Source: Bacteroidota bacterium (GTDB lineage Bacteria; Bacteroidota; Bacteroidia; Chitinophagales; Saprospiraceae). Taken from it: a stretch of DNA of 64,000 nucleotides. The stretch is from NCBI GenBank assembly GCA_003045895.1, contig PZPC01000017.1, positions 1-64,000 on the forward strand. Direction: 5' to 3'. Below, one piece after another: positions 42,299 through 59,222 of this stretch. The notes below the pieces were generated by a model, which saw only the letters and a list, made by a program, of their open reading frames with translations, was not told the origin of the DNA and did no database searches. The translations under genes were made by a program, and so were the position numbers. The stretch's first letter is position 1, and every line of letters begins with the position of its first letter.

Positions 42299-42345
42299 TT
42301 TCCTTTAGATCAGTTTTGAATTGATTATACCAAACCTCTTGCTCC

Positions 42346-44013
42346 TCAAGCCAGTTGCTCCTCAAGTTCTTTTACTGGCGTAGTTTCGGGTGGTATATTT
42401 TGCCATACAGCAGGCGGCACGACCTGCCTGCTTTCGGTGGTGGGAATGTATAAAGCATTCACCAGCCGGTCAAAAAGTGCATTTGCGTAGCAACCATTTC
42501 TGACGTGAATCGCCAGGGCCTGGTAGAATGGTTTGCGGGACAATTTCGGGGCAATCAGCTGCAGGAAAACGGCCAGGCCAAAAGCCAGCAAGAGGATACC
42601 CGCTGCAATGATTTTCCCCGCTCCAGGCACAGTTAATTCAGGTACTTGCGAAGACAGCAGGTAGTGGGTAGCGGATTCCAGCGAGAAGAATGCCACGGTT
42701 ACCAGGAGCGCCAGCAGGGTGGCCCGAGCCAGCAATTTCGAGTTCCATTTACTCGCGATGGCCGCAGTGAATATCCGGGACAGCCCCATGACGATTACCG
42801 CGCCAATGACCAGCAACGCAAATTCTTGCTTCGGATCAATTCCCCAGATCAGCGCGAATGCCGTGTAGAGTGCCAGCGCCATGGCCATACCCCCAACAAT
42901 TTTAACCGGGCTGACGGATTGGGGGACCGTTACCACCTTCGCTCCTCTGATCACCTCAATTACACTTCCGGAAGAAAGGAATGCATGTGCTTTGTAAAAG
43001 GAGTGTGCCACGAGGTGCAGCATGGCTGCCGGGTAAACCCCCAGTCCGCAGACCATCAAACTGAAACCCATGTGCCCCACACTTGAGTAGCCCAGGGCGG
43101 TTTTCACGGAGGTTTGCGTCAGGTAGGCTACCGAAGCAAAAAGTGCGGTGAATCCGCCAATGCTCATCAGTACAATTGGCGCTACGGTGCTGGCATCCAG
43201 CACAAAAGCCATGCGGATGATCAGAAAAGGGCCAGCATTTAATAGCCCGGCATGTAACAAGGCTGATACCGGCGTAGGTGTTTCCATGACCTCGATCAGC
43301 CAGCCGTGGGTCGGGAATTGTGCCGATTTCAGGATGGCCGCCAAAGCTAAAAACAGCGCTGAAACTTCCAGCGGCCAGGCTGGAGAACCGGAAAGGGTAC
43401 CACTTTTGATTGCGGTAAAAATGACTTCAAGATCCCCCGAACTGTACTGGTCGTACAATAAACCAATGGCGACCAATAAACAGGCATCGCCTAAGCGGGC
43501 CAACATAAACTTCTTTCTTGCGGCAAGCTGAGCCCCTGGCCGGTGACGATAAAAAAGCAACAACCGGTGCAGGGATATACTCGTTAAAATCCAGGAAACC
43601 AGCAGTAGCCCGAGGTTACCAGAGAGTACCAGCAATTGTACCGAGGCGATGGTTGCCGACAGTCTGCCCATAAATGCGCCTTGGTTGGGGTCGCCATCCA
43701 GGTAATTGATGCTGAATTTGACGACAATAAAACCCAGCAGGGCAATCATTCCCAGCATGAGCAGGCTCAGGGAATCCAGCCGTATGCTGAAGCCGAAATC
43801 CTTTATCCCGATCGTAGCGTCCGCTAAAAGGCCATCCTCAAAGACATAAAAACAACTCCAGGCCACCATTATTATGCTGATGATCGTAGAGGCTTTACTC
43901 ATGGCGATGATTTGCCGCGGCTTAAAGCCCGGCTGAAACCAGGACGCTACGGCCGTGGCCACAAAAACTGCCGGGGCTAGTAAGGTTAAAAGTATCATTA
44001 AATGGTCTGACAT
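42346..44013 (-). CDS. dabB: DabB, NuoL/MrpA-like proton-conducting membrane subunit
   Basis: Protein of 555 aa, about 14-15 transmembrane helices, belonging to the proton-conducting transporter family (NADH dehydrogenase subunit 5-like). The antiporter core is visible as KSAQFPTHGWLIEVMETPTPVSALLHAG, followed by KTALGYSSVGHMGF. It is shorter than NuoL and lacks its long lateral helix, as expected for DabB. It is encoded just before dabA, so it would supply the cation gradient coupling for bicarbonate accumulation. No Na+/H+ antiporter (mrp) genes surround it, which supports the Dab call. Confidence 0.92.
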   Translation of the reverse strand: MSDHLMILLTLLAPAVFVATAVASWFQPGFKPRQIIAMSKASTIISIIMVAWSCFYVFEDGLLADATIGIKDFGFSIRLDSLSLLMLGMIALLGFIVVKFSINYLDGDPNQGAFMGRLSATIASVQLLVLSGNLGLLLVSWILTSISLHRLLLFYRHRPGAQLAARKKFMLARLGDACLLVAIGLLYDQYSSGDLEVIFTAIKSGTLSGSPAWPLEVSALFLALAAILKSAQFPTHGWLIEVMETPTPVSALLHAGLLNAGPFLIIRMAFVLDASTVAPIVLMSIGGFTALFASVAYLTQTSVKTALGYSSVGHMGFSLMVCGLGVYPAAMLHLVAHSFYKAHAFLSSGSVIEVIRGAKVVTVPQSVSPVKIVGGMAMALALYTAFALIWGIDPKQEFALLVIGAVIVMGLSRIFTAAIASKWNSKLLARATLLALLVTVAFFSLESATHYLLSSQVPELTVPGAGKIIAAGILLLAFGLAVFLQLIAPKLSRKPFYQALAIHVRNGCYANALFDRLVNALYIPTTESRQVVPPAVWQNIPPETTPVKELEEQLA

Positions 44014-44495: not shown

Positions 44496-45815
44496 ATGAT
44501 CAAAGACTTGACCAAGTCACAAGCTCTCCTTGATAGAAGAAAAAGGGTAGTAGCTGATGGCGTAGGTGTATTTAATACCATTACGGTTAAAGCGGCCAAA
44601 GGGGCCATTGTTACCGATGTTGATGGGAATGAGCTCATTGATTTTGCTGGTGGTATAGGCGTGGTAAATGCGGGTCATTGCCCCGAACCGGTGGTAGCGG
44701 CAATCCGGGAGCAAGCGGGTAAATACTTGCACACCAGCTTCAATGTGGTCACTTATGAGCCCTATATCCAATTGTGCGAAGAACTTGCCGAAATTCTCCC
44801 CCACGGGGAGCACACCAAAGTAATGTTGGTCAGCACCGGAGCAGAGGCCATTGAGAATGCTATAAAAATCGCCCGTCAGGCCACTCAAAAATCGGCCGTA
44901 CTTTGTTTCACCGACGCCTATCATGGTCGAACCATGATGGCCATGACGTTGACCAGTAAGGTCAGTTACAAGTACGATTGTGGTCCTTATGCACCAGAAG
45001 TATACCGGCTTCCTTTTCCCAATTTTTATCGGTATCACGGAGAGCGAACCATGGATGAATTTGTAAATGACGAACTGAAAAGACTTCACGAAAGCGCCTT
45101 AAACCTGGTAGATGTTAAAAGTGTGGCCGCCATTATTATTGAACCGATACAGGGTGAAGGCGGATTTAATCCCGTTCCGAAAAGGTATTTGGAAGGATTA
45201 AGGGCATTTTGTGATGAACATGGGATTATGCTGATCATGGATGAAGTGCAAAGCGGATTCTGTCGGACAGGGCATTGGGCCAGTTGGCAGCATTATGGTG
45301 TACAGCCCGATATTAGCACGTATGCAAAATCATTGGGGTCTGGACTTCCGATTGCTGCTGTTGTTGGAAAAGCGGAGATCATGGATGCCGCAGCCCCTGG
45401 CTCTATAGGAGGCACCTATATTGGCAGCCCCATTTGCTGTGTGGCGGCTTTGGCCACCATAAAACACATGAAAGACCTTGACTTAAATGAAAGAGCAGGG
45501 GTAATCGGAAATATTATTTCTACCCGCTTAACTCACCTGATGAGGGCGTGTCCTGAAATAGGAGATGTCCGGGGGATTGGCGCCATGATCGGGATAGAAT
45601 TTGTTAAGAACAACGATCCGAGCCAACCCAACCCGGAAGTTTGTAGTAAAATAATAGCGGGTTGTGCCGAAAACGGCCTGATTGTACTGAGCGCTGGTAC
45701 GTATAAGAATATACTGCGCATTCTTTCCCCACTGGTCATTACAATCGAACAATTGGACCAGGGATTATCCATTTTGGAAAACGAAATTAAAAAGGCTATC
45801 GGCCAAATAATATGA
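44496..45815 (+). CDS. gabT: Class III aminotransferase, 4-aminobutyrate aminotransferase-like
   Basis: PLP enzyme of 439 aa with the class III omega-aminotransferase signature: MDEVQSGFCRTGHWASWQHYGV, then STYAKSLGSGLP with Schiff-base Lys278, and the IIEPIQGEGG core. The closest style is GabT/PuuE, moving the terminal amine of GABA or a related omega-amino compound to 2-oxoglutarate. It is the first of seven co-directional genes, and its TGA overlaps the next ATG (ATGA), so translation is coupled. In this cassette it may act on a diamine derivative or on the GABA released from it. The family is sure; the substrate is inferred. Confidence 0.9.
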   Translation: MIKDLTKSQALLDRRKRVVADGVGVFNTITVKAAKGAIVTDVDGNELIDFAGGIGVVNAGHCPEPVVAAIREQAGKYLHTSFNVVTYEPYIQLCEELAEILPHGEHTKVMLVSTGAEAIENAIKIARQATQKSAVLCFTDAYHGRTMMAMTLTSKVSYKYDCGPYAPEVYRLPFPNFYRYHGERTMDEFVNDELKRLHESALNLVDVKSVAAIIIEPIQGEGGFNPVPKRYLEGLRAFCDEHGIMLIMDEVQSGFCRTGHWASWQHYGVQPDISTYAKSLGSGLPIAAVVGKAEIMDAAAPGSIGGTYIGSPICCVAALATIKHMKDLDLNERAGVIGNIISTRLTHLMRACPEIGDVRGIGAMIGIEFVKNNDPSQPNPEVCSKIIAGCAENGLIVLSAGTYKNILRILSPLVITIEQLDQGLSILENEIKKAIGQII

Positions 45816-46753
45816 GACCATTCGCGATTGCAGGCATACAGATGAAAGTATCAGCCGTTATTTCCAATGTGGAAATGATGAAGCTGAAAATAGATATTAC
45901 CATGAATCTCTATCCCTGGATAGAAATGATTATGTTCAGCGAGTTGTGTGCCTACGGCCCACTCACCCATACGGCGCAACCCATCCCCAATCATTTTGAA
46001 GCAGAAATGCAGGCCATGGCCAAGAAATATGGCATTTGGTTATTACCGGGTTCCATTTTCGAAAAAAGTGAGGGCAAGTTGTACAACACGGCAACGGTGA
46101 TTAACCCCCAGGGAGAGATCGTAACCCGCTACCGCAAAATGTTCCCCTTCTACCCCTACGAAGTGGGCGTAACACCAGGCAGCGATTATTGCACGTTCGA
46201 TGTGCCGGGAGTTGCCAAATTTGGGGTATCCATCTGCTACGATATGTGGTTTCCTGAAACGATCAGAACATTGGTTTCCATGGGCGCTGAAGTGATTATG
46301 CACCCCACCATGTCGGGTACCATTGATCGCGATATTGAACTCTCCATTGTCCGGGCAATGGCATCCGTCAACCAGTGTTACTTCTTTGACGTCAACGGAT
46401 TGGATACGGGCGGTTGTGGCCGTTCGATCGTTTGTGGCCCCGATGGAAGGGTGCTGCACCAATCGGAAGGAACAGAGGAAATTATTCCCCTGGAATTAAA
46501 TATCGAACGGGTTAAGCGAAGCCGTGAATTGGGCATCTTACGCCTGGGTCAGCCTTTAAAAAGCTTTCGTGACCATTTAAAGATCGGCACGTTTGACATC
46601 TATCAACCCAACACAGAAAGTCCGTATCTGGATACGCTGGGCGCATTGATCAAACCTTCGAGACTGGACCAATTAACGGAATTAAAGCTCCGGGAGGATG
46701 CTATTGAAAAAGCATCAACACCTATTCATTTTAAAGGTGATGGCTCCCTGTAA
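45812..46753 (+). CDS. Carbon-nitrogen hydrolase (nitrilase superfamily amidohydrolase)
   Basis: Protein of 313 aa, cytoplasmic, with the complete Glu-Lys-Cys triad: Glu44 in MFSELCAYG, Lys109 in TRYRKMFPF, Cys142 in VSICYDMWFPE. The fold cleaves C-N bonds of amides, carbamoyl-amines or nitriles. Relatives include N-carbamoylputrescine amidase and omega-amidase. Coupled by ATGA to the aminotransferase and followed by an amine-forming decarboxylase, it most likely hydrolyses an amide or ureido derivative of an amine in the same pathway. The C-terminal 50 residues extend past the usual core. Confidence 0.9.
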   Translation: MRPFAIAGIQMKVSAVISNVEMMKLKIDITMNLYPWIEMIMFSELCAYGPLTHTAQPIPNHFEAEMQAMAKKYGIWLLPGSIFEKSEGKLYNTATVINPQGEIVTRYRKMFPFYPYEVGVTPGSDYCTFDVPGVAKFGVSICYDMWFPETIRTLVSMGAEVIMHPTMSGTIDRDIELSIVRAMASVNQCYFFDVNGLDTGGCGRSIVCGPDGRVLHQSEGTEEIIPLELNIERVKRSRELGILRLGQPLKSFRDHLKIGTFDIYQPNTESPYLDTLGALIKPSRLDQLTELKLREDAIEKASTPIHFKGDGSL

Positions 46754-46803
46754 AGGTGATGGATGCAAGTACAAAGTGATGGTTTAATTTAAAACAAAAA
46801 ACA

Positions 46804-47211
46804 ATGGGAGGAATACCTCAAGGAAAAAATAAAAAATCAGCAGCAAGCAAAGACTACGTGAGTTGGTTTGAAATACCCGCAATTGACTTTCACCAGGCGG
46901 TCAATTTTTACAACCACATTTTTGGTATTACGATGGAACAAAACATTACACCGGTCAATGCAATGGCCTTTTTCCCGGCCACCGGAGGCATTGGTGGAAG
47001 TGTAGTAGCAGGCCAGGGATATGTGCCTAGTGATTGTGGCCCATTAATCTACCTCAACGGAGGAAAGGATTTAAACAATGTCTTAAACAAAATAGAGGCC
47101 GCAGGAGGACGGGTCATCATGCCCAAGACCCTCATCAGCAAAGAGATGGGCTACTTTGCTGTTTTTATTGATTCACAAGGAAACAAACTTGCCTTATATT
47201 CCAAAAACTAA
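46804..47211 (+). CDS. VOC-family (glyoxalase/bleomycin-resistance fold) protein
   Basis: Protein of 135 aa with one VOC module pair: VSWFEIPAIDFHQAVNFYNHIFG at the start and GYFAVFIDSQGNKLALYS at the end, the classic beta-alpha-beta-beta-beta signatures. The first 16 residues are Lys/Gly-rich and probably disordered. VOC proteins bind metals or small molecules and may isomerise, cleave or simply bind a product. It sits 3 bp before the GTG of the decarboxylase, so it is surely in the same operon. Its role is not predictable. Confidence 0.85.
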   Translation: MGGIPQGKNKKSAASKDYVSWFEIPAIDFHQAVNFYNHIFGITMEQNITPVNAMAFFPATGGIGGSVVAGQGYVPSDCGPLIYLNGGKDLNNVLNKIEAAGGRVIMPKTLISKEMGYFAVFIDSQGNKLALYSKN

Positions 47212-47214
47212 CCC

Positions 47215-49974
47215 GTGATTAAAACAAATATAAAAACAGCCCCCTATTACAACATTGGTCAATTGCGGGTTGATTACTGGAACAAATTAAAAATTGTAAC
47301 AGCTGAATTAGCCAGATGCCAGATTGGATCGGCAAATGAAAAAACGTACATAAGCGAAACCACCTCCCTTTTGAAAGATTTAAAGGGCGTAGCAGCTTAT
47401 TTTGCCAGTCCGGGCACGGAGCGTATTCAAAAATTGGAACACGCGCTGGCCAGACACGAACATACTGCTTTATCCCATTTGGTAGCTGAAACAACCAAAC
47501 AATTGGTGGGTGATAGCTACCGGAGTAATCCAGACTTTGTGGATTACAATGAGCACAGCATAGAATCCGTTGAGGAGCATGAACACTTCAATGCGATCAA
47601 AAAAAACCATTTTGAAGTCTTGTTTGTCGATGATATATCTATTGAAGCAGAAAGCGAACTAAAAAACAGCTTCAGGAAGCTGCGGACGTCACACGACAAT
47701 TTCACCTTTGGCATCGTCGTGCAACGGTCTTTTCAAGATGCCCTGATCGCTTTGCTTTTCAACCACAATATCCAGGCCGTCGTCGTTCGATATGCGCCAC
47801 CCTATCATTCAAAGCTCATTACGCCGCTCATTAAGCCCTACATCCAGCAGGTCGAAAAACTGGATTATTCCGACAAATCGGAAACCGAACTGGGACCGCT
47901 TATTGGCAGCTTAATCAAGGAATTCAGGCCAGAACTGGATGCCTATTACGTGACCGATACGGCACTGGGCCATTTAATGGATAGTACGATAAAAAGCTTC
48001 CGCCGTATCTTCTACCAAACGGAGGATATCCAGGAATTGCATCTTACGATTATGCGGGGGATTGCCGAACGGTATAACACGCCCTTCTTTTCGGCTTTAG
48101 TAGAATATAGCCAAAAGCCGACCGGCGTTTTTCACGCCATGCCCATTTCACGGGGAAATTCGGTCTTCAAATCTCGCTGGATCAATGATTTCGGGGATTT
48201 CTACGGCCGCAATATGTTCCTGGCCGAAACGTCAGCAACCACCGGTGGTCTCGATTCTTTGTTACAGCCAACGGGACCGCTGAAGAAGGCCCAGGAAATG
48301 GCGCGGGACGCCTATGGTTCCCAACATACGTACTTTGTTACCAACGGAACGTCTACCGCGAATAAGATTGTGATGCAGGCGCTGGTACAACCGGGCGATG
48401 TGGTGCTGATTGACAGGGATTGCCATAAATCGCACCATTACGGTTTGGTTTTGTCGGGTGCCTATCCGGTTTACCTGGACTCCTACCCGATTGAAGAATA
48501 TTCGATGTATGGCGCCGTTCCAATTGAGCAGATCAAAAGCAAATTACTGCGGTTGAAAGCTGCCGGAAGGTTAAATAAGGTAAAGATGCTCTTGCTGACC
48601 AATTGCACCTTTGATGGCATTGTGTACCATGTGGAAAGGGTCATGGAAGAAATCCTGGCCATTAAGCCCGACATGATTTTTTTATGGGACGAAGCCTGGT
48701 TCGCTTTTGCCGGTTTTGCCAGCAATTACAGGCAACGAACCGCTATGTTTACGGCAGACAAGTTGTACCACAAGTACGAAAGCAGTGCCTATAAAAAACA
48801 ATATTCGGCCTATACCCAATCCTTGGGTGCGGAAGAGGTTTCCGTACTGCCCAATCCTGACGAAGTCCGTATTCGGGTGTATGCGACCCAAAGTACCCAT
48901 AAAACCTTGAGCAGTTTCAGGCAAGGTTCCATGATTCATATCTGGGACGAAGATTTTAGGCGGAAAAGCGAAGAAACCTTCCTGGAAGCTTATATGACGC
49001 ATACCTCTACCTCGCCAAATTACCAGATGTTGGCTTCGTTGGATGTCGGTCGTCGGCAAGTGCAGTTGGAAGGTTTTGAATTGGTGGAAAAGAGCATAGA
49101 AATGGCGATGGTTCTCCGCGCCAAAATAAATGACACCCCCCAGTTGAGAAAATATTTTGACATTTTATCCGTGGGTAATTTCATCCCGGATAAGTACCGA
49201 CAATCCGGGTTGAACGAGTTTTATTCCAAAGAAGAAGGTTGGAACCGAATGGAAGAAGCGTGGGAAGATGACGAATTCGTCCTGGATCCCACCAAGATAA
49301 CCTTATACGTCGGTAGAACGGGCGTGGATGGGGATACTTTTAAGAATAAGTACCTGATGGATAAATTTAATATCCAGATCAACAAGACGTCTAGAAACAC
49401 GGTACTGTTCATGACCAACATCGGGACTACCCGAGGAAGTATTACCTACCTGACCAGTGCGCTGCTTAGAATTGCCGACGAATTGGACGAAGAGTTTAAA
49501 TCCTTGAATTCCAAGGAAATAGAGCTGCTGCAAAAGCGAATACACTCCTTAACCAAAGAAGTGCCTCCCCTACCCGATTTCAGCTATTTCCACGAATCAT
49601 TCCAGGCGGTCCCAGGTATCCCGGGAGGCGATATCCGAACCGCTTATTTCCTGGCGTATGATGAAGAAAATTATGAATATGTGCCGCTTGACAATTGTTT
49701 GTCATTGATGAGCAAAGGTAAAACCTTGGTTGCCTCCACCTTTGTCATTCCGTATCCGCCTGGTTTCCCGGTACTTGTTCCCGGGCAGGTCGTCAGCGAA
49801 GAAATCATTAATTTCCTAACCGCAGTGGACGTCAGTGAAATCCATGGGTACCGGGCAGATCTTGGCCTAAGGGTATTCAACGAAAGTGTGTTGAACCGCT
49901 ATCAAACCATAACTTCCATGGGAGCTATGGAAGGTATGGGCATGAACACCTTGAGTAAACATTCAAAAAAATAA
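47215..49974 (+). CDS. Orn/Lys/Arg decarboxylase family PLP enzyme (large, with N-terminal wing domain)
   Basis: Protein of 919 aa with a GTG start 3 bp after the VOC stop. Residues about 130-260 form the flavodoxin/REC-like wing domain (HFEVLFVDDISIE). The fold-type I PLP core follows, with YFVTNGTSTANK, LWDEAWFAF and the Schiff-base Lys563 in ATQSTHKTLSSFRQGS. The C-terminal domain ends with IHGYRADLGLRVF. Family members decarboxylate arginine, lysine or ornithine to agmatine, cadaverine or putrescine. The protein is longer than most (about 710-760 aa), and extra sequence lies in the N-terminal 120 residues. The substrate cannot be told by eye. Confidence 0.9.
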   Translation: MIKTNIKTAPYYNIGQLRVDYWNKLKIVTAELARCQIGSANEKTYISETTSLLKDLKGVAAYFASPGTERIQKLEHALARHEHTALSHLVAETTKQLVGDSYRSNPDFVDYNEHSIESVEEHEHFNAIKKNHFEVLFVDDISIEAESELKNSFRKLRTSHDNFTFGIVVQRSFQDALIALLFNHNIQAVVVRYAPPYHSKLITPLIKPYIQQVEKLDYSDKSETELGPLIGSLIKEFRPELDAYYVTDTALGHLMDSTIKSFRRIFYQTEDIQELHLTIMRGIAERYNTPFFSALVEYSQKPTGVFHAMPISRGNSVFKSRWINDFGDFYGRNMFLAETSATTGGLDSLLQPTGPLKKAQEMARDAYGSQHTYFVTNGTSTANKIVMQALVQPGDVVLIDRDCHKSHHYGLVLSGAYPVYLDSYPIEEYSMYGAVPIEQIKSKLLRLKAAGRLNKVKMLLLTNCTFDGIVYHVERVMEEILAIKPDMIFLWDEAWFAFAGFASNYRQRTAMFTADKLYHKYESSAYKKQYSAYTQSLGAEEVSVLPNPDEVRIRVYATQSTHKTLSSFRQGSMIHIWDEDFRRKSEETFLEAYMTHTSTSPNYQMLASLDVGRRQVQLEGFELVEKSIEMAMVLRAKINDTPQLRKYFDILSVGNFIPDKYRQSGLNEFYSKEEGWNRMEEAWEDDEFVLDPTKITLYVGRTGVDGDTFKNKYLMDKFNIQINKTSRNTVLFMTNIGTTRGSITYLTSALLRIADELDEEFKSLNSKEIELLQKRIHSLTKEVPPLPDFSYFHESFQAVPGIPGGDIRTAYFLAYDEENYEYVPLDNCLSLMSKGKTLVASTFVIPYPPGFPVLVPGQVVSEEIINFLTAVDVSEIHGYRADLGLRVFNESVLNRYQTITSMGAMEGMGMNTLSKHSKK

Positions 49975-49985
49975 AATAACAAAAT

Positions 49986-51524
49986 ATGAGTGATAAAAAA
50001 GTAATTCCAACAAAGAAGAAGCCTGCTGTTGTGCGTAAGAAAGCAGTTGTCGTAAAAAAAACGCAGGAACCAGACATCCTCAACGGCGTATCGGATATAC
50101 GGCGATTTTTTTATAAAAATGAAGTACCGCTGTATTTTATCAGTGCCACCAATTTCAATATGTTAGGTGCCGATGAATGGATTAAGGGCTTTAAATTTAT
50201 CTGTCATATCGAATGTTTTGATGGGCAACATCCCAATGTTTTCTCCCCCAAAGAAGAAATTCCCCACGATGAGTTTACCAGCATTGAAGACATCAACAAC
50301 TATTTACTGCAGCATCCGGAAGTACAGGCCTACCTGAAGCTAAGAAAGACCGGTAGAACAACGGGCAAGGCCATGTTCCTGATGTTTGATGAGCAGACCG
50401 AGAAGCTGGCTAAGAAATTAGGGTTACAGGTCATGTTCCCTACCGCCAAGATGCGTACGTTCATGGACAACAAAGTGAACACCAACCGTATCGCTGAAAA
50501 AGCGGGGGTGCCCTGTGTGCCCTATGTATTGACGCCGGTAACGGATTATGCCCAGTTGAACAAAGTGTCGAAAGCCCTCGGCACTGATTTGGTCATTCAA
50601 ACTCCTTTTGGCGATTCCGGACACACGACTTTCTTCATTACCAACGAAGAAGAGTTTAAAAAATACGAAGAGGAAATCGTCAAAGAGCAGGAAGTTAAAG
50701 TCATGAAACGCATCAATTGCAAAGGTTCTGCCATTGAAGCCTGTGTGACCAGACACGGTACCATTGTGGCGCCATTGATGACCGAACTGGTTGGTTTCAA
50801 GGAAATGACTCCTTATAAAGGTGGATGGTGTGGCAACGAGATCTACCCCAATGCATTTACCCCTGAACTGCGGGAAAAAGCCACGAAATACACCCAGCTT
50901 TTTGGCAACCAATTGCGCAAAGAAGGTTACAAAGGTTACTTCGAGCTGGATTTCCTGATTGATCAAGACAATGGGGAAATCTATCTCGGAGAACTCAACC
51001 CAAGGGTCACCGGCGCAAGTTCGATCACCAACCATGCCGTTTTTGCCCTGGCTGATGCCCCGCTTTTTGTCTTCCACATTTTAGAATGGATGGACGTGGA
51101 TTATGAGTTGGACGTGAATGAACTGAACGAACGTTGGTCTAAGCAGGACAACATTGACGGTTGGAGCCAGTTGATCATCAAGCACACCGAAGATACCATT
51201 GAGTATGTTGCTGAAGCGCCGGCTTCGGGTATTTATAAAATGTTCGATAATGGGCATATTCAATTCGACCGGATGGATACGCACAGAAGAGCCGTAGAGT
51301 CTGAAAGTGAAGCCTTCTTTTTGCATATCTCCAAGCAAGGGGACTACCTCTACGAAGGAGCTGATATGGGAATTTTGGTTTCCAGAGGGCGTGTGATGAC
51401 CGACGATTTCAAACTTAATGCACGAGCTAAAGATTGGATTAAAGCCATCCGTTCAAAGTATGCATCAACAATAGTTGAGGACAGAAGAGAACAAATTGCG
51501 CTAACGGGTACGCTGACCAAATAA
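49986..51524 (+). CDS. ATP-grasp ligase (carbamoyl-phosphate synthase/biotin-carboxylase-like fold), probable amine or amino-acid ligase
   Basis: Protein of 512 aa. Residues 1-30 are a Lys/Val-rich basic tail. The ATP-grasp core spans about 140-350, with nucleotide-binding loop TPFGDSGHTTFF, ATP contact KRINCKGSAIEACV, and metal ligands in FELDFLIDQDNGEIYLGELN-PR. Family homologues are often labelled biotin carboxylase, but no biotin carrier, carboxyltransferase or biotin ligase is nearby. ATP-grasp enzymes activate a carboxylate as acyl-phosphate and join it to an amine or thiol. Next to a decarboxylase and amidohydrolases, ligation of an acyl or aminoacyl group to a diamine is the favoured inference. 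A strong terminator follows at 51531. Confidence 0.82.
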   Translation: MSDKKVIPTKKKPAVVRKKAVVVKKTQEPDILNGVSDIRRFFYKNEVPLYFISATNFNMLGADEWIKGFKFICHIECFDGQHPNVFSPKEEIPHDEFTSIEDINNYLLQHPEVQAYLKLRKTGRTTGKAMFLMFDEQTEKLAKKLGLQVMFPTAKMRTFMDNKVNTNRIAEKAGVPCVPYVLTPVTDYAQLNKVSKALGTDLVIQTPFGDSGHTTFFITNEEEFKKYEEEIVKEQEVKVMKRINCKGSAIEACVTRHGTIVAPLMTELVGFKEMTPYKGGWCGNEIYPNAFTPELREKATKYTQLFGNQLRKEGYKGYFELDFLIDQDNGEIYLGELNPRVTGASSITNHAVFALADAPLFVFHILEWMDVDYELDVNELNERWSKQDNIDGWSQLIIKHTEDTIEYVAEAPASGIYKMFDNGHIQFDRMDTHRRAVESESEAFFLHISKQGDYLYEGADMGILVSRGRVMTDDFKLNARAKDWIKAIRSKYASTIVEDRREQIALTGTLTK

Positions 51525-51530
51525 CACACC

Positions 51531-51578
51531 AGCCCGTATTTTAACCGGCTAGCCAGGTTGAAATGCGGGCTGTTTTTG
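51531..51578 (+). terminator. Rho-independent terminator inside the amine cassette
   Basis: AGCCCGTATTTTAACC (51531-51546) pairs with GGTTGAAATGCGGGCT (51556-51571), 14 of 16 Watson-Crick with two G-T pairs in RNA. The loop GGCTAGCCA is itself palindromic, and GTTTTTG follows. It lies 7 bp after the ATP-grasp stop and 54 bp before the C45 gene, so the last two genes are expressed by read-through or from their own promoter. Confidence 0.88.
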
Positions 51579-51631
51579 TGATGTAAATCGTACATCAACC
51601 CCAAAATGGAGGCTTAACGCTAAACAATACC

Positions 51632-52858
51632 ATGCAATTACATTTCAATGCGATCTCCGAAGCGGGCTTACCGGGCCCGAAGTGGAAAAAAATATTTGAT
51701 CTATACTGGCCGGCCTACCAAGCCTGGTTAACGTCCAAAGGTACGGCCTATGTGCCTGATTTGCAAACCTCGCAGGCTGCACTTAAAAAGTACATGCCTA
51801 AAATGTGGCCCACTTATAAGCGGCTGTGTAAGTTGACGAATGCTGATCCGGTAGCAGCCCGTTTTCTAACCGGTTTTCAACCACCGGCTTATATCAGTGC
51901 TTGTTCTCAGGCCGTAACCGTTGCTAAAACGGTGCAATTGGTTCGCAATTACGATTACCATCCAGATCTGATGGAAGGTACCCTCTTGTTGAGTGCCTGG
52001 AACGGTAAGAAAGTGATTGCCACCAGTGATTGCCTAATCGGTGCCATAGACGGCATGAACGAAGACGGACTTGCGATATCTCTTACCTTTGGCGGACGCA
52101 AGGCTGTTGGCGAGGGTTTCGGTATTCCTTTTATTTTGCGGTACGTACTTGAATTTTGCAGCAATGTGGAGGAAGCAGTAGCGACTTTGTCTGCCATACC
52201 CTCCCACATCTCTTACAACGTTACCGTGGTTGATCCTAGCGGAGCATTCAAGACCGTGCGCTTGTCACCAGACCGAGCTCCGGTCATAACGGATGCCGCC
52301 TTTGCCACCAACCACCAGGGAACCGTAGATTGGCCCGAGAATGCGTTGTTCAACAAAACCGTCGAAAGAGCGGACTTTTTGGAAGATCTATTAATAGCAA
52401 AGCAAGTGGATGCCCAGCAAGTGGCAGCTGCTTTTCTTCGACCTCCCCTTTACAACACCCTTTTCACCCAAGGTTTTGGGACGCTTTACACGGCTGTCTA
52501 TAACCCCTTAGCGCGAACGGTACAGGTGCGCTGGCCGCAGACGGACATTCTGGTTAGCTTTGATCACTTTACCGAAACGTACAAATTGATCACGTACGAT
52601 CAGCCAGCCCTCCTACCACAAACTGACGCCGTAGCACCAGTCTTAACCGAAGCCCAGGCACCAACCAGCTCGCCAGCAGATTGGCAAGAAGTGGTGGCCG
52701 ATGTGCTAGTCGATACCACCGTTGTATCGGTCCCCCCTGAACACAAAACCAAGCTCAAGACCTTGCGTAAAAACATTATCCGACGGGGAGAAATATCCTG
52801 GGAAATTTTGGTGGATTACTGGGCGAAAGCAGGCGAAGCGTATTGGAAGAAATGGTAA
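51632..52858 (+). CDS. C45-family autoproteolytic acyltransferase/amide hydrolase (Ntn fold)
   Basis: Protein of 408 aa, related to acyl-CoA:6-aminopenicillanate acyltransferase and linear-amide C-N hydrolases. The predicted self-cleavage and nucleophile site is Cys91 in AYISACSQAV. The conserved VRNYDYHPDL and ATSDCLIGAIDGMNEDGLAISLTFGGR blocks follow, with an Asn near FATNHQG as oxyanion or substrate contact. No signal peptide is seen. The C-terminal 70 residues (Pro/Thr-rich linker, then a basic helix) are an add-on. In this cassette it may remove, or transfer, an N-acyl group on the amine intermediate. It sits 18 bp before the dehydrogenase gene. Confidence 0.85.
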   Translation: MQLHFNAISEAGLPGPKWKKIFDLYWPAYQAWLTSKGTAYVPDLQTSQAALKKYMPKMWPTYKRLCKLTNADPVAARFLTGFQPPAYISACSQAVTVAKTVQLVRNYDYHPDLMEGTLLLSAWNGKKVIATSDCLIGAIDGMNEDGLAISLTFGGRKAVGEGFGIPFILRYVLEFCSNVEEAVATLSAIPSHISYNVTVVDPSGAFKTVRLSPDRAPVITDAAFATNHQGTVDWPENALFNKTVERADFLEDLLIAKQVDAQQVAAAFLRPPLYNTLFTQGFGTLYTAVYNPLARTVQVRWPQTDILVSFDHFTETYKLITYDQPALLPQTDAVAPVLTEAQAPTSSPADWQEVVADVLVDTTVVSVPPEHKTKLKTLRKNIIRRGEISWEILVDYWAKAGEAYWKKW

Positions 52859-52876
52859 AACTAATTCAAAAAAAAA

Positions 52877-54232
52877 ATGGAATTCAAAAGTATAAATCCC
52901 TACAATAACCAGAAAGTTGGCTCCTATACCGCGCTATCAAAAGCGGAAACCACCGCCAGGCTAGATACTGCCCAAACTGCTTTTCAATCCTGGCGCAAAG
53001 TACCGCTTGCCGATAGAGCCCATTTAATAAAAAAGGCAGGTCAGGTATTGCGGGACCACGTGGAAGAATACGCTAAAATGATTACGCTGGAAATGGGCAA
53101 GCCTATTGCGGAGTCTCGGTCGGAAGTCAATAAATGTGCCTGGGTATGCGACTACTATGCTGAAAATGCGGCCGCCTTCCTGGCCGATGAAGTCATTGCC
53201 ACTGATGCACAGCAGAGTTTTGTCAGACATGACCCTTTAGGCACCGTGTTGGCCATCATGCCTTGGAATTTTCCATTTTGGCAAGTTTTCAGGTATGCTG
53301 CCCCCACTCTGACTGCCGGAAACACCGGCTTATTGAAACATGCTCCCAACGTGTTTGGGTGTGCCCAACTCATCGCAGGGGTTTTTGTGAAAGCGGGATT
53401 TCCACCAGGTGTATTTCAAAACCTGATCGTGCACCACGACCTCACCGAACACATTATCGCACATGATGGGGTCAGGGCGGTTACCCTGACCGGAAGTGAA
53501 AGAGCAGGTGCTGCGGTGGCCGAAATTGCCGGAAGGCACCTCAAAAAATCAGTTTTAGAACTTGGGGGAAACAATGCCTTCATCGTGTTGGAAGATGCCG
53601 CTATTGACCAAGCCGTAAAAACGGCCATTACTGCCAGAATGCTGAATTGTGGACAAAGCTGTATTGCGGCAAAACGCTTCATTTTAGTCGGAGGTATTTA
53701 CGACGAATTTGTCACCAAATTCACCGCAGCCGTGCGCAAGTTGAAAGCTGGCGATCCGCTGGCCGAAACGACGCAGGTTGGGCCCCTGGCGCGGAAAGAT
53801 TTGGCCGACCAACTCAATCGACAGGTTGTGGAATCGGTCAGGCAAGGGGCTGAATTGCTCCTGGGCGGCCATCAACTAGGTTGTTACCATGAGCCTACCG
53901 TTTTGGGGAATGTACAGCCCGGGATGGCGGCCTTTGACGAAGAAACCTTCGGCCCCCTGGCGGCTATGGTTAAAGCCACAGACATCGATCATGCTTTTGA
54001 GCTTTCCGAACTGTCGAAGTACGGACTTGGGGTAACCGTGTGCACAACAAATACCGCCCTGGCCCTACAATATGCGGAGCGGGTTAGCGACGGTGCGTAT
54101 TTTATCAACGAATTGGTGAAGTCGGATCCGAGATTGCCCTTTGGCGGCACGAAGAAGTCGGGGTATGGCCGGGAATTGGCCAAAGATGGCATGATGGAGT
54201 TTGTCAACAGAAAAACTGTTTATTTGAAATAG
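52877..54232 (+). CDS. gabD: NAD(P)-dependent aldehyde dehydrogenase, succinate-semialdehyde dehydrogenase type
   Basis: Protein of 451 aa. Aldehyde dehydrogenase hallmarks are present: MPWNFPFWQVFRYAAPTL, LTGSERAGAAVAEIAG, catalytic Glu in LELGGNNAFIV, catalytic Cys262 in NCGQSCIAAKRF, and EETFGPLAAM. The length and sequence style match short SSADH/Sad-type enzymes, which oxidise succinate semialdehyde or small amino-aldehydes. As the last gene of the cassette it would oxidise the aldehyde made by the aminotransferase. The family is sure; a gamma-aminobutyraldehyde or acylated aldehyde substrate is equally possible. Confidence 0.92.
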   Translation: MEFKSINPYNNQKVGSYTALSKAETTARLDTAQTAFQSWRKVPLADRAHLIKKAGQVLRDHVEEYAKMITLEMGKPIAESRSEVNKCAWVCDYYAENAAAFLADEVIATDAQQSFVRHDPLGTVLAIMPWNFPFWQVFRYAAPTLTAGNTGLLKHAPNVFGCAQLIAGVFVKAGFPPGVFQNLIVHHDLTEHIIAHDGVRAVTLTGSERAGAAVAEIAGRHLKKSVLELGGNNAFIVLEDAAIDQAVKTAITARMLNCGQSCIAAKRFILVGGIYDEFVTKFTAAVRKLKAGDPLAETTQVGPLARKDLADQLNRQVVESVRQGAELLLGGHQLGCYHEPTVLGNVQPGMAAFDEETFGPLAAMVKATDIDHAFELSELSKYGLGVTVCTTNTALALQYAERVSDGAYFINELVKSDPRLPFGGTKKSGYGRELAKDGMMEFVNRKTVYLK

Positions 54233-54289: not shown

Positions 54290-54648
54290 ACGGCTCAAAT
54301 CTCTTTGCAACTAAATAAGGCCAAGAGCCAACTAAAAGGCCTTAAAGGCAACGTGGTTTTTGTGACGGCTTATGACCACTACGCCGTAGAAGCTTTCCGG
54401 TTCAGCGCTATTGATTATTTGCTCAAGCCTATCGACAGCGAAGAGCTCCACAATGCCCTGGAGAAGGTAAAAAACAACTTAGCCAATAATCATTTGCAAT
54501 TAAAATTCAACACCCTGCTGGAAAATATAGGACAAACAGAAAAGAAGAAAATTATTCTCAAAGAAATAGATACCCATCACATTGTGGAAGTAGACCAGGT
54601 TTTGTGGTGCAGCGCCGAAGGGAGTTATACGCGGGTGGTGATTTGCTG
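54290..54648 (+). pseudogene. LytTR-type response regulator fragment, truncated at both ends
   Basis: The plus-strand frame after TAA at 54287 contains the second half of a receiver domain (VVFVTAYDHYAVEAFRFSA, then IDYLLKPIDSEEL with the conserved Lys). A linker and the start of a LytTR DNA-binding domain follow (KIILKEIDTHHIVEVDQVLW, SAEGSYTRVVI). The phospho-acceptor Asp half of the receiver is missing, and the LytTR domain stops after about 35 residues. Beyond about 54648 the frame reads through the antisense of the DUF3841 gene. No start codon fits except TTG 54305. It is a relic without likely function. Confidence 0.8.
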
Positions 54649-55203
54649 CGGTGCTGCTTCGATTTTAGAGCTTGTTTCAGTAATGTTTCGCATTCTTTTC
54701 GAATCCAGAGGTTCCCAGGCTACCAGCCAGTCGGGTTCGAGGTAAGGCAGGCAAGCCTGAATAGCGCGAAAATAAAGCCGCGGCCGGCCTCGGTGCGGGG
54801 TAAGGTGCACGGCAAAACAAGCTGCCACATCCTGGGGTTCCGGTGCTAAACCGCCTATAAAACGGTCTAAAATATTGTTCCAATAGCCATAGCAGGACGC
54901 TAATACCAGGTGCCCCGGCACTTCCAGTTCCAGCACATTGATGCCTCCTGCCAGTTGATAACCAAACAACAAGGCGTCGGCACAATCCTCATCGGGCTTG
55001 CCGCCCAAACGATTCACCGAATGCCAGGCCCATACCGGCGCATTTTCGCCGACAGGTATGTCGCGCAGCGCCATTTGCCCGCCCATCCAGCGAAAGGCAT
55101 TTTGCCAGCGTTCACCGGGCACGTGTGCCCAGGCACACACGTAGCGTTCGCCTTTTTGCAGGGTTTCAAGTACGGAAGGATGTTGGTAAGACCAGAGCCG
55201 CAT
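54625..55203 (-). CDS. DUF3841 family protein
   Basis: Protein of 192 aa starting MRLWSYQHPSVLETLQKGE. It carries the DUF3841 pattern (AFRWMGGQMALR, then PVWAWHSV and a Cys-containing SCYGYWNNILDRF region). The family function is unknown. The last 15-17 residues (about 54625-54675) are encoded by sequence antisense to the LytTR relic and to a 15-mer shared with the MITE edge, so the native C-terminus appears replaced by junk. Activity may still be intact because the conserved core ends before that point. Confidence 0.75.
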   Translation of the reverse strand: MRLWSYQHPSVLETLQKGERYVCAWAHVPGERWQNAFRWMGGQMALRDIPVGENAPVWAWHSVNRLGGKPDEDCADALLFGYQLAGGINVLELEVPGHLVLASCYGYWNNILDRFIGGLAPEPQDVAACFAVHLTPHRGRPRLYFRAIQACLPYLEPDWLVAWEPLDSKRMRNITETSSKIEAAPQQITTRV

Positions 55204-55256
55204 GCTGTTCGTTTTTAGGTTGTTGCTTCATAGTAGGGTAAAAGAAAATGATAACC

Positions 55257-55307
55257 AATGAGTTACAAAAATGGTATTTCAATTCAATTTTTGCAAATTA
55301 ACTCATT
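55257..55307. promoter_or_regulatory. Perfect dyad in the divergent spacer (operator or structured leader)
   Basis: AATGAGTTA (55257-55265) and TAACTCATT (55299-55307) form a perfect 9-bp inverted repeat, with CAAAAAT/ATTTTTG as a second nested pair. It lies between the divergent DUF3841 gene and the secreted alpha/beta hydrolase gene. Confidence 0.45.
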
Positions 55308-55428
55308 AGATTGTTCCAAAACATGTTTCCGCATCCGATAGTTCCTACCTATTATTGCAATGATCAGCGCCAGAGCGCATCCATAGTTCGGGTCCAGTTG
55401 TTATGGATAACGTTGAAATCCATTATCA

Positions 55429-56400
55429 ATGAAAACAAGCTTCTTTTTGATGAGTCTTTTCTTGTTAAATACCGTATCCGCACAAACCCACGTAAACTAT
55501 CCGCATCAGCAAGTAAGGGTATCTGACCACTCGCAAAAACCGACCGGATTTTGGTTATTCGAGCCCACAGCACCCGTACCTGATGCAGCCAAAGTGATCG
55601 TCCTCCTCCATGGATACGGTGGCTACAATCCGATGATCTACGGATCATGGATAAAGCACCTGGTTTTGCAGGGCAACACGGTTATTTTTCCGCGTTACCA
55701 GCGCAACATGGTCTTCCCGAGGCCGTCCCGTTTTGTTAAAAATACGGCAAAAGGGATCCAACAGGCGCTGCAATTATTGGCCACCGAAGGCCATGTGCCT
55801 CCACTGCGCGGCGCTGAACCCATTCATTATATTGGCCACTCTTACGGCGGCGTGATCGCCTCGAATTTGGCCGTCCACAGCGATCAGTGGTCATTGCCCA
55901 AACCAGCGGGTATTTTCTTAATCGCGCCAGGATCGGGGCCATTTAAAGGAGCCGTACTTGAGGATTACGACAGCTTATCGGATAGCCTAAAAATGCTGAT
56001 CGTGACCCACCAAAACGATTGGGTGGTCGGCAGTATGCTGGGCGAAAGAATTTTCAACGAATCCAGCCCTTTAATGGACAAATACCTTTTTGACCACCGG
56101 GCTTTTTCCAGCGGAGGGGATACCATCTGGGCCCACCACAATGAGGCTTACGCCCTAGATCTGGAATTTGATGCGGGCATTAGAAATTATACGGCCAGGC
56201 GGGCATTACAAATTGGTCGGACGGATGCCGTCAACTATAACTTTCTCTGGCCTTTATTTGACCGGCTTATGCGGGCCACCGAGAAAGAAGAAACGGTTTT
56301 CAGTGATTTAAGGCAAAAAAACGGGAAGTTTTATTTCCCGTTCGTGTTAAAAAAGGATAGCCCGGTACAATGGATTGAAGTGAGACGGCCTTTCAATTAA
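55429..56400 (+). CDS. Secreted alpha/beta hydrolase
   Basis: Protein of 323 aa with a signal peptide (cleavage after NTVSAQ near residue 19). The alpha/beta hydrolase core shows VIVLLHGYGGYNP for the oxyanion hole and IGHSYGG for the Ser nucleophile (near residue 137). The catalytic Asp is probably in THQNDWVVG and a His follows in the HHNEAY region. No T9SS sorting domain, so it is probably periplasmic. Likely an esterase or lipase-type hydrolase; the substrate is unknown. It is a single gene, followed by REP-like palindromes. Confidence 0.82.
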   Translation: MKTSFFLMSLFLLNTVSAQTHVNYPHQQVRVSDHSQKPTGFWLFEPTAPVPDAAKVIVLLHGYGGYNPMIYGSWIKHLVLQGNTVIFPRYQRNMVFPRPSRFVKNTAKGIQQALQLLATEGHVPPLRGAEPIHYIGHSYGGVIASNLAVHSDQWSLPKPAGIFLIAPGSGPFKGAVLEDYDSLSDSLKMLIVTHQNDWVVGSMLGERIFNESSPLMDKYLFDHRAFSSGGDTIWAHHNEAYALDLEFDAGIRNYTARRALQIGRTDAVNYNFLWPLFDRLMRATEKEETVFSDLRQKNGKFYFPFVLKKDSPVQWIEVRRPFN

Positions 56401-56410
56401 ATGTGTGCTT

Positions 56411-56531
56411 CCCGTGCCGTAGGTACGGCATCTAAATCAATACCGTACCTACGGCACGGCTAATCTATGGGTGAAACAATTTTCTACCGATAGCGCGTCC
56501 CTAGAGGCACGCTTCCCTTATAATAAGGGCG
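56411..56531. repeat. REP-like palindromic repeat cluster
   Basis: CCGTGCCGTAGGTACGG (56412-56428) is perfectly repeated in inverse at 56443-56459 with a 14-nt loop. Downstream, the palindrome CCCTTATAATAAGGG lies at 56515-56529. The intervening GTGAAACAATTTTCTACCGATAG-like stretch has the look of Bacteroidetes extragenic repeats. The first stem directly follows the hydrolase stop and probably terminates it. Confidence 0.65.
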
Positions 56532-56572
56532 CATTATCGCATATTCATTGTTGTAGTGCGTTTTCAATTGCT

Positions 56573-56695
56573 CTAAATAACTAGCCTCCCAGCGTTTATT
56601 TCCTTGTAGTTCGGATTTACCACTAACCAACTTTTCTCACCATCTGTGAAACCACCCAAATTATCATCAGCCCACTGGTCTATTAACTTAGCTTT
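56573..56695 (-). pseudogene. GH13 alpha-glucosidase/amylase fragment
   Basis: A 40-codon minus-strand frame contains QWADDNLGGFTDGEKSWLVV and then NPNYKEIN. This is the diagnostic MQW-DD-N-GFT-G-W-VNPNYKEIN block of GH13 oligo-1,6-glucosidase/sucrose-isomerase-type enzymes. Both sides end in stops, and no other part of a GH13 gene is present. It overlaps the 3' end of the adjacent GH32 gene by 8 bp. It is a relic of a glucan/sucrose gene once next to the GH32 operon. Confidence 0.6.
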
Positions 56696-58943: not shown

Positions 58944-58989
58944 AATTTCTGTTTTAAATAACGCGGTCCATGTGGATAAGAAAATTTTA

Positions 58990-59192
58990 GAGCTTGTTTG
59001 GGAATTTTGCGAACTGATTTTCAACGATTTATGGTTCTGGCTAAGGGATTAAAATTGAATTTAGCGGGCTAAATGAAATTTTCATGCCGACGCCAGGTTC
59101 ACAAATCCTTGAAAATCAGGAAGCATCAACCCTTTTCTATTCTTTAATTTGGGGTATTTGTATTTCACAAAATAAAATTCCCAAACAAGCTC
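58990..59192. mobile_element. 203-bp MITE with 19-bp terminal inverted repeats and TTA target duplication
   Basis: GAGCTTGTTTGGGAATTTT (58990-59008) and its exact complement at 59174-59192 bound a non-coding element. TTA lies directly outside both ends (58987-58989 and 59193-59195), as in IS5-family IS1031-type insertions, which make 3-bp TNA duplications. No transposase frame. It lies between the two GH32 genes, 47 bp upstream of the second one's ATG, and could alter its expression. Confidence 0.75.
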
Positions 59193-59222
59193 TTAGATAA
59201 AAACAACCCCCATCATTACCAT

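Follow-up and report, generated by a model that had tools for sequence, protein, structure and literature searches.

The window analysed here comprises 64,000 nucleotides of contig PZPC01000017.1 (assembly GCA_003045895.1) from a Bacteroidota bacterium of the Saprospiraceae. On its forward strand, at positions 44496-54232, lies a cassette of seven intact genes, which we designate AT, NIT, VOC, DC, GRASP, C45 and ALDH. AT (44496-45815) encodes a class III aminotransferase resembling gamma-aminobutyric acid (GABA) transaminase (Pfam Aminotran_3, 399 bits) and is joined by a 4-base ATGA overlap to NIT (45812-46753), whose product is a carbon-nitrogen hydrolase of the amidase type (Pfam CN_hydrolase, 101 bits). 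After 50 bases follows VOC (46804-47211), a small glyoxalase-fold protein (Pfam Glyoxalase, 22.7 bits against a cut-off of 20.6), and 3 bases further DC (47215-49974), which starts with GTG and encodes a pyridoxal phosphate (PLP) decarboxylase of the Rv2531c family within the OKR superfamily (OKR_DC_1, 268 bits). GRASP (49986-51524), 11 bases downstream, encodes an ATP-grasp enzyme and probable ligase (NCBIfam PRK06524, NF005096, 793.6 bits, cut-off 684). A gap of 107 bases separates it from C45 (51632-52858), an Ntn-type acyltransferase/hydrolase (NF040521, 157 bits, cut-off 85; AAT, 117 bits), and a gap of 18 bases lies before ALDH (52877-54232), which is similar to succinate-semialdehyde dehydrogenases and has Sad as its best match in the PDB (E 1.2e-127). 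The open reading frames (ORFs) bear out the tight same-strand spacing described in an earlier, sequence-only reading of this DNA, the Pfam and NCBIfam matches agree with the families it had named, and the catalytic residues it had called intact are all present (DC K563, the AT equivalent of K268, NIT E44/K109/C142 and C45 C91).

The internal terminator of the same reading also has a counterpart. In the gap between GRASP and C45 there is a strong terminator-like hairpin (51525-51582, forward strand; -32.1 kcal/mol, z -7.06); none of 200 shuffled sequences folded as well, and GTTTTTGT is found downstream of the stem. The hairpin was absent from the forward-strand listing of a generic terminator scan. 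A search for repeats in the cassette region gave only short imperfect pairs.

To see how far the gene set is conserved, we searched 296 genomes of the same phylum, a small draw that was not selected for GRASP. GRASP was present in four of them, the window's own included. The other three have the same gene order with 40-77% identity, VOC not being found in two of these three, and DC occurred in five genomes of the draw, namely the four with GRASP and one in which DC stops at the contig end. Additionally, named genomes were scanned with an eight-member GRASP alignment at E values up to 1e-3, and at least 513 stretches with a GRASP relative were obtained. The best 80 of these were used for counting genes; as GRASP was the criterion of selection, every count presupposes its presence. 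Upstream DNA of 8.5 kb or more was available in 62 loci, downstream DNA of 4.5 kb or more in 67 and both in 54. Clusters built from ORFs overlook some genes (none were shown for L078, where tblastn finds them), and the counts of the seven genes were not taken from such clusters.

DC was located upstream of GRASP in 62/62 loci, NIT and AT in 58 each and VOC in 51; the order AT-NIT-DC-GRASP was seen in 58, and the four remaining loci lacked AT and NIT together. Downstream of GRASP, C45 was present in 48 of the 67 loci, an ALDH with 45% identity or more in 39 and any ALDH in 48. The complete seven in order were found in 23 of 54 loci. The identities of DC and GRASP to the window's proteins were correlated (r 0.91, 78 loci). 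Within the fetched DNA, L079, L090, L092 and L093 had only VOC-DC-GRASP of the seven genes, and in seven Bacteroidota loci an APC amino-acid permease lay within the operon or immediately 3' of it. It is clear that the clustering is beyond chance, because dozens of further genomes have this gene order; chance clustering of the seven genes is thereby ruled out, and so is the outcome which the sequence-only reading had named as fatal to its proposal, that the order would be conserved nowhere. The operon is real and conserved, and several of its enzymes are without an assigned reaction. In eight loci (L041, L042, L044, L051, L053, L054, L057 and L058) we also noticed an Lrp/AsnC regulator upstream of the operon, together with a divergent Cys/Met-type PLP enzyme, one copy of each having been scanned.

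The operon is probably horizontally mobile and carried between distant marine bacteria. Among the 296 genomes, GRASP was absent from five others of the same family and from the ten listed ones of the same order. In a quick tree, with many weak branches and several rows from metagenome bins, the window's GRASP was placed among mostly Flavobacteriaceae, and it is 90% identical to a Eudoraea protein. The GRASP of genome G053, which shares only its class with the window, grouped with Psychroflexus, and the rows from Ignavibacteriota and Calditrichota were placed among Bacteroidota. Transfer between orders would be the simplest reading of these placements. The G+C content is 47.0% in the cassette, 54.1% in bases 1-44000 and 48.4% in bases 54301-64000; because the low value continues past the cassette end, it is weak evidence of transfer.

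Residues 13-905 of the 919 residues of DC match PDB entries 9n0n and 9n0o (E 1.5e-244), a near full-length similarity that assigns DC to the Rv2531c family. A review (PMC12910592) gives entry 9N0O as Rv2531c, and its passages on this protein handle it as a single enzyme whose activity is not clarified. We aligned the window's DC with 74 relatives, leaving seven DC fragments unaligned. The catalytic lysine K563, equivalent to the STHK lysine of CadA and SpeF, is present, and the PLP-site residues T220, S221, H245, S247, D330, W333, H366, K367, T399 and S400 (CadA numbering) are kept in all 75 sequences. At the position of V524-x-E526 of CadA (E526 corresponds to E532 of SpeF), all 75 have Q721-x-N723; CadA E663 is Gln858 in DC, and CadA S373 is an arginine. 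Glu526 has been postulated to bind the side-chain amine of lysine in CadA, according to PMC5607190. Since this glutamate of CadA and SpeF is replaced by asparagine throughout the alignment, free lysine or ornithine is an unlikely substrate, which speaks against these two as the amino acid that the sequence-only reading had decarboxylated in place. AdiA has a threonine at the same position, and because it too does without Glu526, arginine is still a candidate substrate of DC.

The identity of AT is highest to E. coli GabT (44%), slightly lower to PuuE (42%) and lowest to PatA (33%). In an alignment of the window's AT with 60 others (one cluster member shorter than 400 amino acids was omitted), the residues corresponding to GabT I50, R141, E211, K268, T297 and R398 were conserved in 61/61 sequences. 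R141 of GabT is presumably the arginine that holds the carboxylate of GABA. PatA has Phe at position 50 and Lys at position 141, and it shares E211, K268, T297 and R398 with GabT; a role of AT as a diamine transaminase is thus disfavoured. GabT V241 is Ile in 24 of the 61 sequences. The best solved match of ALDH is the succinate-semialdehyde dehydrogenase (SSADH) Sad, and its identity to GabD and PuuC is 32% and 30%. AT and ALDH, both of which score below the equivalog cut-offs, thus resemble the closing enzymes of a GABA-type route (PuuE/SSADH). The sequence-only reading had let the two enzymes replace PuuB and PuuC; as they match PuuE and SSADH instead, the cassette would be left with no dedicated enzyme for a first amine oxidation.

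In NIT, residues E44, K109 and C142, which we take to be the catalytic triad, are invariant (23/23). The protein scores 76 bits with the AguB model TIGR03381, far from its cut-off of 410. Because neither AT nor NIT occurs without the other (58 of 62 loci have both, and the same four have neither), the product of NIT and the substrate of AT are probably linked. C45 exceeds the NF040521 cut-off and has the Cys nucleophile, Cys91, in 29/29 sequences; a PDB search gave no solved relatives beyond weak choloylglycine-hydrolase matches. It had been proposed that either C45 or the nitrilase stands in for PuuD. The near-constant hydrolase is NIT (58 of 62 loci), and C45, found in 48 of 67 loci, is dispensable. 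C45 is doubled in tandem in two Brumimicrobium loci (L023 and L024). In L021 (11455-12156), L037 and L063, the position of C45 between GRASP and ALDH is taken by a gene for a protein of about 233 amino acids; the L021 copy gave no match in Pfam or PHROGs. The C45 matches in Sulfitobacter and on pSymB of S. meliloti R11 had neither GRASP nor telling neighbours among the annotated features. A PHROGs search of VOC gave nothing.

GRASP passes the PRK06524 model, which is named 'biotin carboxylase', and is labelled accordingly in public annotation; the name is doubtful, and the sequence does not bear it out. In biotin carboxylase, the QVE(H) that follows EMNxR binds bicarbonate. When the profiles were aligned, EMNTRIQVEH of biotin carboxylase was opposite ELNPRITGAS of GRASP, with QVEH replaced by TGAS, although this stretch scores just 0.3 bits alone and the main profile match is the ATP-binding part. 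We thus disfavour GRASP as a biotin carboxylase. A structure predicted from a 29-row alignment, from which L090 was omitted because of a stop inside the tblastn range, had a predicted local distance difference test (pLDDT) score of 67, with 148 residues below 50. The model has an ATP-grasp fold and was nearest to biotin carboxylase, PurK and carbamoyl-phosphate synthetase (best Z 21.8); the 'ATP grasp protein' 3wvq/3wvr, presumably a peptide ligase, followed closely (Z 20.3-20.5), so the nearest folds are poorly separated. The comparison gives the ATP-grasp fold only, and absence of a family from the match list carries no weight. GRASP is probably a ligase, and because of its fold, its partner hydrolases and its constant pairing with DC, we infer that it forms an amide.

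Relatives of GRASP were also found in 32 plasmid records (49-62% identity among the 20 listed), 11 of which were examined. In Shinella, Roseateles sp. XES5 and Sinorhizobium sp. RAC02 (L010:3653-17930, L100 and L097), GRASP-C45 is embedded in an arginine-catabolic cluster, flanked by an aldehyde dehydrogenase on one side and a D-amino acid dehydrogenase on the other. The cluster also contains an agmatinase, a 5-guanidino-2-oxopentanoate decarboxylase, a racemase-arginase fusion, RidA and an amino-acid permease, and a NIT relative is located on the other strand. Only the Shinella proteins were scanned, with 212 bits for the agmatinase (cut-off 174) and 737 bits for the 5-guanidino-2-oxopentanoate decarboxylase (cut-off 500). 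Similarly, Cupriavidus necator N-1 has NIT-GRASP-C45 and a partial 5-guanidino-2-oxopentanoate decarboxylase match near the end of the locus. These contexts point to arginine-derived substrates, and the Shinella type, whose arginine cluster involves no free diamine, speaks against the diamine pathway of the sequence-only reading.

The rhizobial loci contain, within the fetched DNA, only DC-GRASP-C45 of the seven genes; in S. meliloti SM11 and R. leguminosarum Vaf10 the run is followed by a dipeptide-type ABC importer, an amidase, an RpiR-type regulator and a serine hydrolase of the beta-lactamase family. In S. meliloti SM11, DC-GRASP-C45 is preceded by TGGCATGACTTTTGCA (three pattern matches in the 25-kb locus, where none were expected), and a TGT-N10-ACA site lies 104 bases upstream of it. 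Downstream of TGGCATGACTTTTGCA, the stretch beginning ATGGCAGCTCTGCGTCAG is identical to the beginning of nifH as annotated in the locus of R. leguminosarum Vaf10. In Vaf10 itself, where DC adjoins nifHDKEN, TGGCACGAATCTTGAG, which precedes DC, is the mirror copy of the element in front of nifH; it has two mismatches to the strict pattern, and the evidence here is the copy, not the pattern. The copied nifH-type promoters were noted at L012:8577-8900 in SM11 and L104:8208-9260 in Vaf10. Two further R. leguminosarum loci, L099 and L011, gave no match to the strict pattern. Taken together, the promoter copies suggest that DC-GRASP-C45 may be expressed in nodules. We also noticed that annotation splits the rhizobial DC into two overlapping ORFs, both in Vaf10 (L104:9201-11995) and in L011 (9141-11814), and that in L011 just the first part of C45 remains before transposases begin.

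Elsewhere in its genome the host has a separate agmatinase gene, the only one of three genes to pass a curated equivalog cut-off, an AguB-like amidase gene (295 bits, cut-off 410) closer to AguB than NIT is, and a gene resembling biosynthetic arginine decarboxylase (161 bits, cut-off 369). Because of these separate genes, polyamine synthesis in the host is probably independent of the operon, and a role of the operon in it is unlikely.

Our preferred reading, which we put forward tentatively and at somewhat less than even odds, is that the cassette is a mobile catabolic operon whose route passes through an amide intermediate and then through a GABA branch to an organic acid. DC would strip the carboxyl group from an amino acid of the arginine family or one bearing an amide, and GRASP would spend ATP on joining the amine in an amide, either ahead of the decarboxylation or following it. 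NIT, and in many genomes C45 too, would cleave the amide to give a GABA-type omega-amino acid, which AT and ALDH would turn into succinate or glutarate. In favour of this reading are the constant pairing of DC with GRASP, the joint occurrence of AT and NIT, the GabT-type I50 and R141 of AT, the match of ALDH to Sad, the missing QVEH of GRASP, the APC permease of the seven Bacteroidota loci, the arginine-catabolic cluster of the Shinella type and the separate polyamine genes of the host.

Several observations weigh against this reading. If the product of DC were a plain diamine, there would be no obvious enzyme for the first amine oxidation. Only I50 and R141 discriminate GabT from PatA, the other four kept residues being common to both, and GabT Q79, also found in PuuE, is Asn in 61/61 AT sequences. 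AT scores 482 and 492 bits, under the GABA transaminase equivalog cut-offs of 506.65 and 676, and ALDH is likewise under the SSADH cut-offs (PRK09406, 513 against 730; PRK13968, 494 against 855). The clusters of Shinella, XES5 and RAC02 are 90-97% identical and represent one lineage, so the link to arginine rests on these and C. necator; in Roseobacter, Pseudorhodobacter and C. oxalaticus, which have NIT-DC-GRASP-C45, none of the tested Shinella genes were found. A purely catabolic view does not explain the loci with VOC-DC-GRASP only or the rhizobial ones with DC-GRASP-C45 only. Finally, the hairpin may be a terminator that separates C45-ALDH from the other five genes.

In the order given by the sequence-only reading, DC would release a free diamine, GRASP would cap it, AT and ALDH would oxidise the capped amine, NIT or C45 would uncap the product to GABA or 5-aminovalerate, and AT and ALDH would then act again. 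Every enzyme class needed is present and conserved together, and a precedent exists in AstC and ArgD, class III aminotransferases for which acylated ornithine is a substrate (PMC3590144). Nevertheless, AT has the I50 and R141 of GabT, unlike PatA, and DC does not have the glutamate proposed to hold the amine in CadA and SpeF (nor does AdiA, by which arginine stays a candidate); we consider this order rather unlikely. A biosynthetic role seems to us similarly improbable. DC and GRASP would then build a compound for storage, signalling or exchange, either an N-acyl amine or a small amide, which NIT or C45 with AT and ALDH would recycle, and in rhizobia the product would be a rhizopine-like nodule compound re-imported by kin. 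The loci with only VOC-DC-GRASP would fit such a role, as would the SM11 and Vaf10 loci, with DC-GRASP-C45 behind a nifH promoter copy and ahead of the importer, amidase, regulator and serine hydrolase genes. The two hydrolases and the GABA drain of the full operon suit breakdown better, however, and the strict promoter pattern is missing in L099 and L011.

Another order would have the cap put on first. GRASP, as founder of an amide-ligase family, would make a gamma-glutamyl or acyl amino acid, and DC, with its Gln721/Asn723 pocket, would decarboxylate this conjugate, not free lysine, ornithine or arginine; NIT and C45 would hydrolyse the product, AT and ALDH would finish the route, and the rhizobial DC-GRASP-C45 would have been recruited behind the copied nifH promoter for a nodule-specific amide. 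With the cap placed before decarboxylation, no separate amine oxidase would be needed. As a whole, we regard this scheme as distinctly unlikely. It is very unlikely that DC decarboxylates oxidatively to an omega-amino amide, which NIT would hydrolyse, with AT and ALDH acting as DavT and DavD and with GRASP and C45 as accessories. Such a route would account for the tight pairing of AT and NIT and for the GABA-transaminase-like AT, with no oxidation step missing, but it leaves GRASP without a role although GRASP is the constant partner of DC (all 62 GRASP-selected loci and four of the five DC genomes of the unselected draw), and we know of no OKR-fold decarboxylase that decarboxylates oxidatively to an amide. 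That GRASP is a biotin-independent carboxylase like PurK, acting for example on a guanidino group, with NIT or C45 hydrolysing the carboxylated product, is about as unlikely: the nearest folds and the arginine context in some Proteobacteria are in its favour, the change of QVEH to the low-scoring TGAS stretch and the nearly equal scores of 3wvq/3wvr are against it.

Next to the cassette, the reverse strand carries a DabA gene (868 bits) and a Proton_antipo_M gene (39821-44013), which we take to be DabB; the two are probably an inorganic-carbon uptake pair. On the 3' side of the operon, a partial response-regulator-like fragment (54305-54742) scores 25.5 bits, under the Pfam cut-off. A response-regulator gene cluster is also found near the cassette in L041, L044, L079 and L090, of which the L090 copy was scanned. 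Further downstream, at 56688-61442 on the reverse strand, are two GH32 glycoside hydrolases with Por secretion tails.

Searches of the PDB, of protein families and of the open-access literature gave no reaction assigned to this type of GRASP, DC, NIT or C45, and neither a description of the operon nor a paper on PRK06524 was found in the open-access literature. If the chemistry of the operon were solved, a name could be given to the widespread decarboxylase family to which Rv2531c belongs, to an ATP-grasp activity that is new and to a nitrogen pathway that is mobile and found largely in marine Bacteroidota; GRASP relatives are as numerous in named genomes as given above. The version with the nifH promoter would point to an unexamined symbiotic metabolite.

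The cassette can be compared with several known systems. DC shares its superfamily and PLP residues with CadA, AdiA and SpeF, from which it differs by an identity of 24-28%, altered pocket residues and a greater length (919 amino acids); its similarity to Rv2531c extends over residues 13-905. C45 belongs, with a Cys at the nucleophile position, to the C45/AAT family, which also contains the carcinine/beta-alanyl-amine hydrolase Tan and isopenicillin N acyltransferase. AT resembles GabT and ALDH resembles Sad, as in the GABA drain, whereas the window's pair is encoded in one operon together with DC, GRASP and the amidase-type hydrolases NIT and C45. In the DavBATD lysine route, DavA hydrolyses an omega-amino amide. 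The cassette similarly has a CN-hydrolase followed by a GABA-type transaminase and a semialdehyde dehydrogenase, but a PLP decarboxylase takes the place of the flavin monooxygenase, and GRASP and C45 are added. The E. coli Puu route (PuuA-B-C-D-E) proceeds by ATP-dependent conjugation, hydrolytic release, a GABA transaminase and an aldehyde dehydrogenase. Among the seven cassette proteins, Pfam detected neither a PuuA-type glutamine-synthetase ligase nor a PuuB-type flavin adenine dinucleotide amine oxidase (the rest of the genome was not searched for one), and the only hydrolase families were CN_hydrolase and AAT/C45, with no PuuD-type gamma-Glu-GABA hydrolase. AT shares 42% identity, I50 and R141 with PuuE, differs from it by the change of Q79 to Asn and stays under the curated cut-offs. 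As the sequence-only reading had held, the families are not those of Puu: a decarboxylase, an ATP-grasp enzyme, two amidase-type hydrolases, a GABA-type aminotransferase and an aldehyde dehydrogenase form one conserved cassette, which would share with Puu the logic of conjugation, release, GABA transaminase and aldehyde dehydrogenase.

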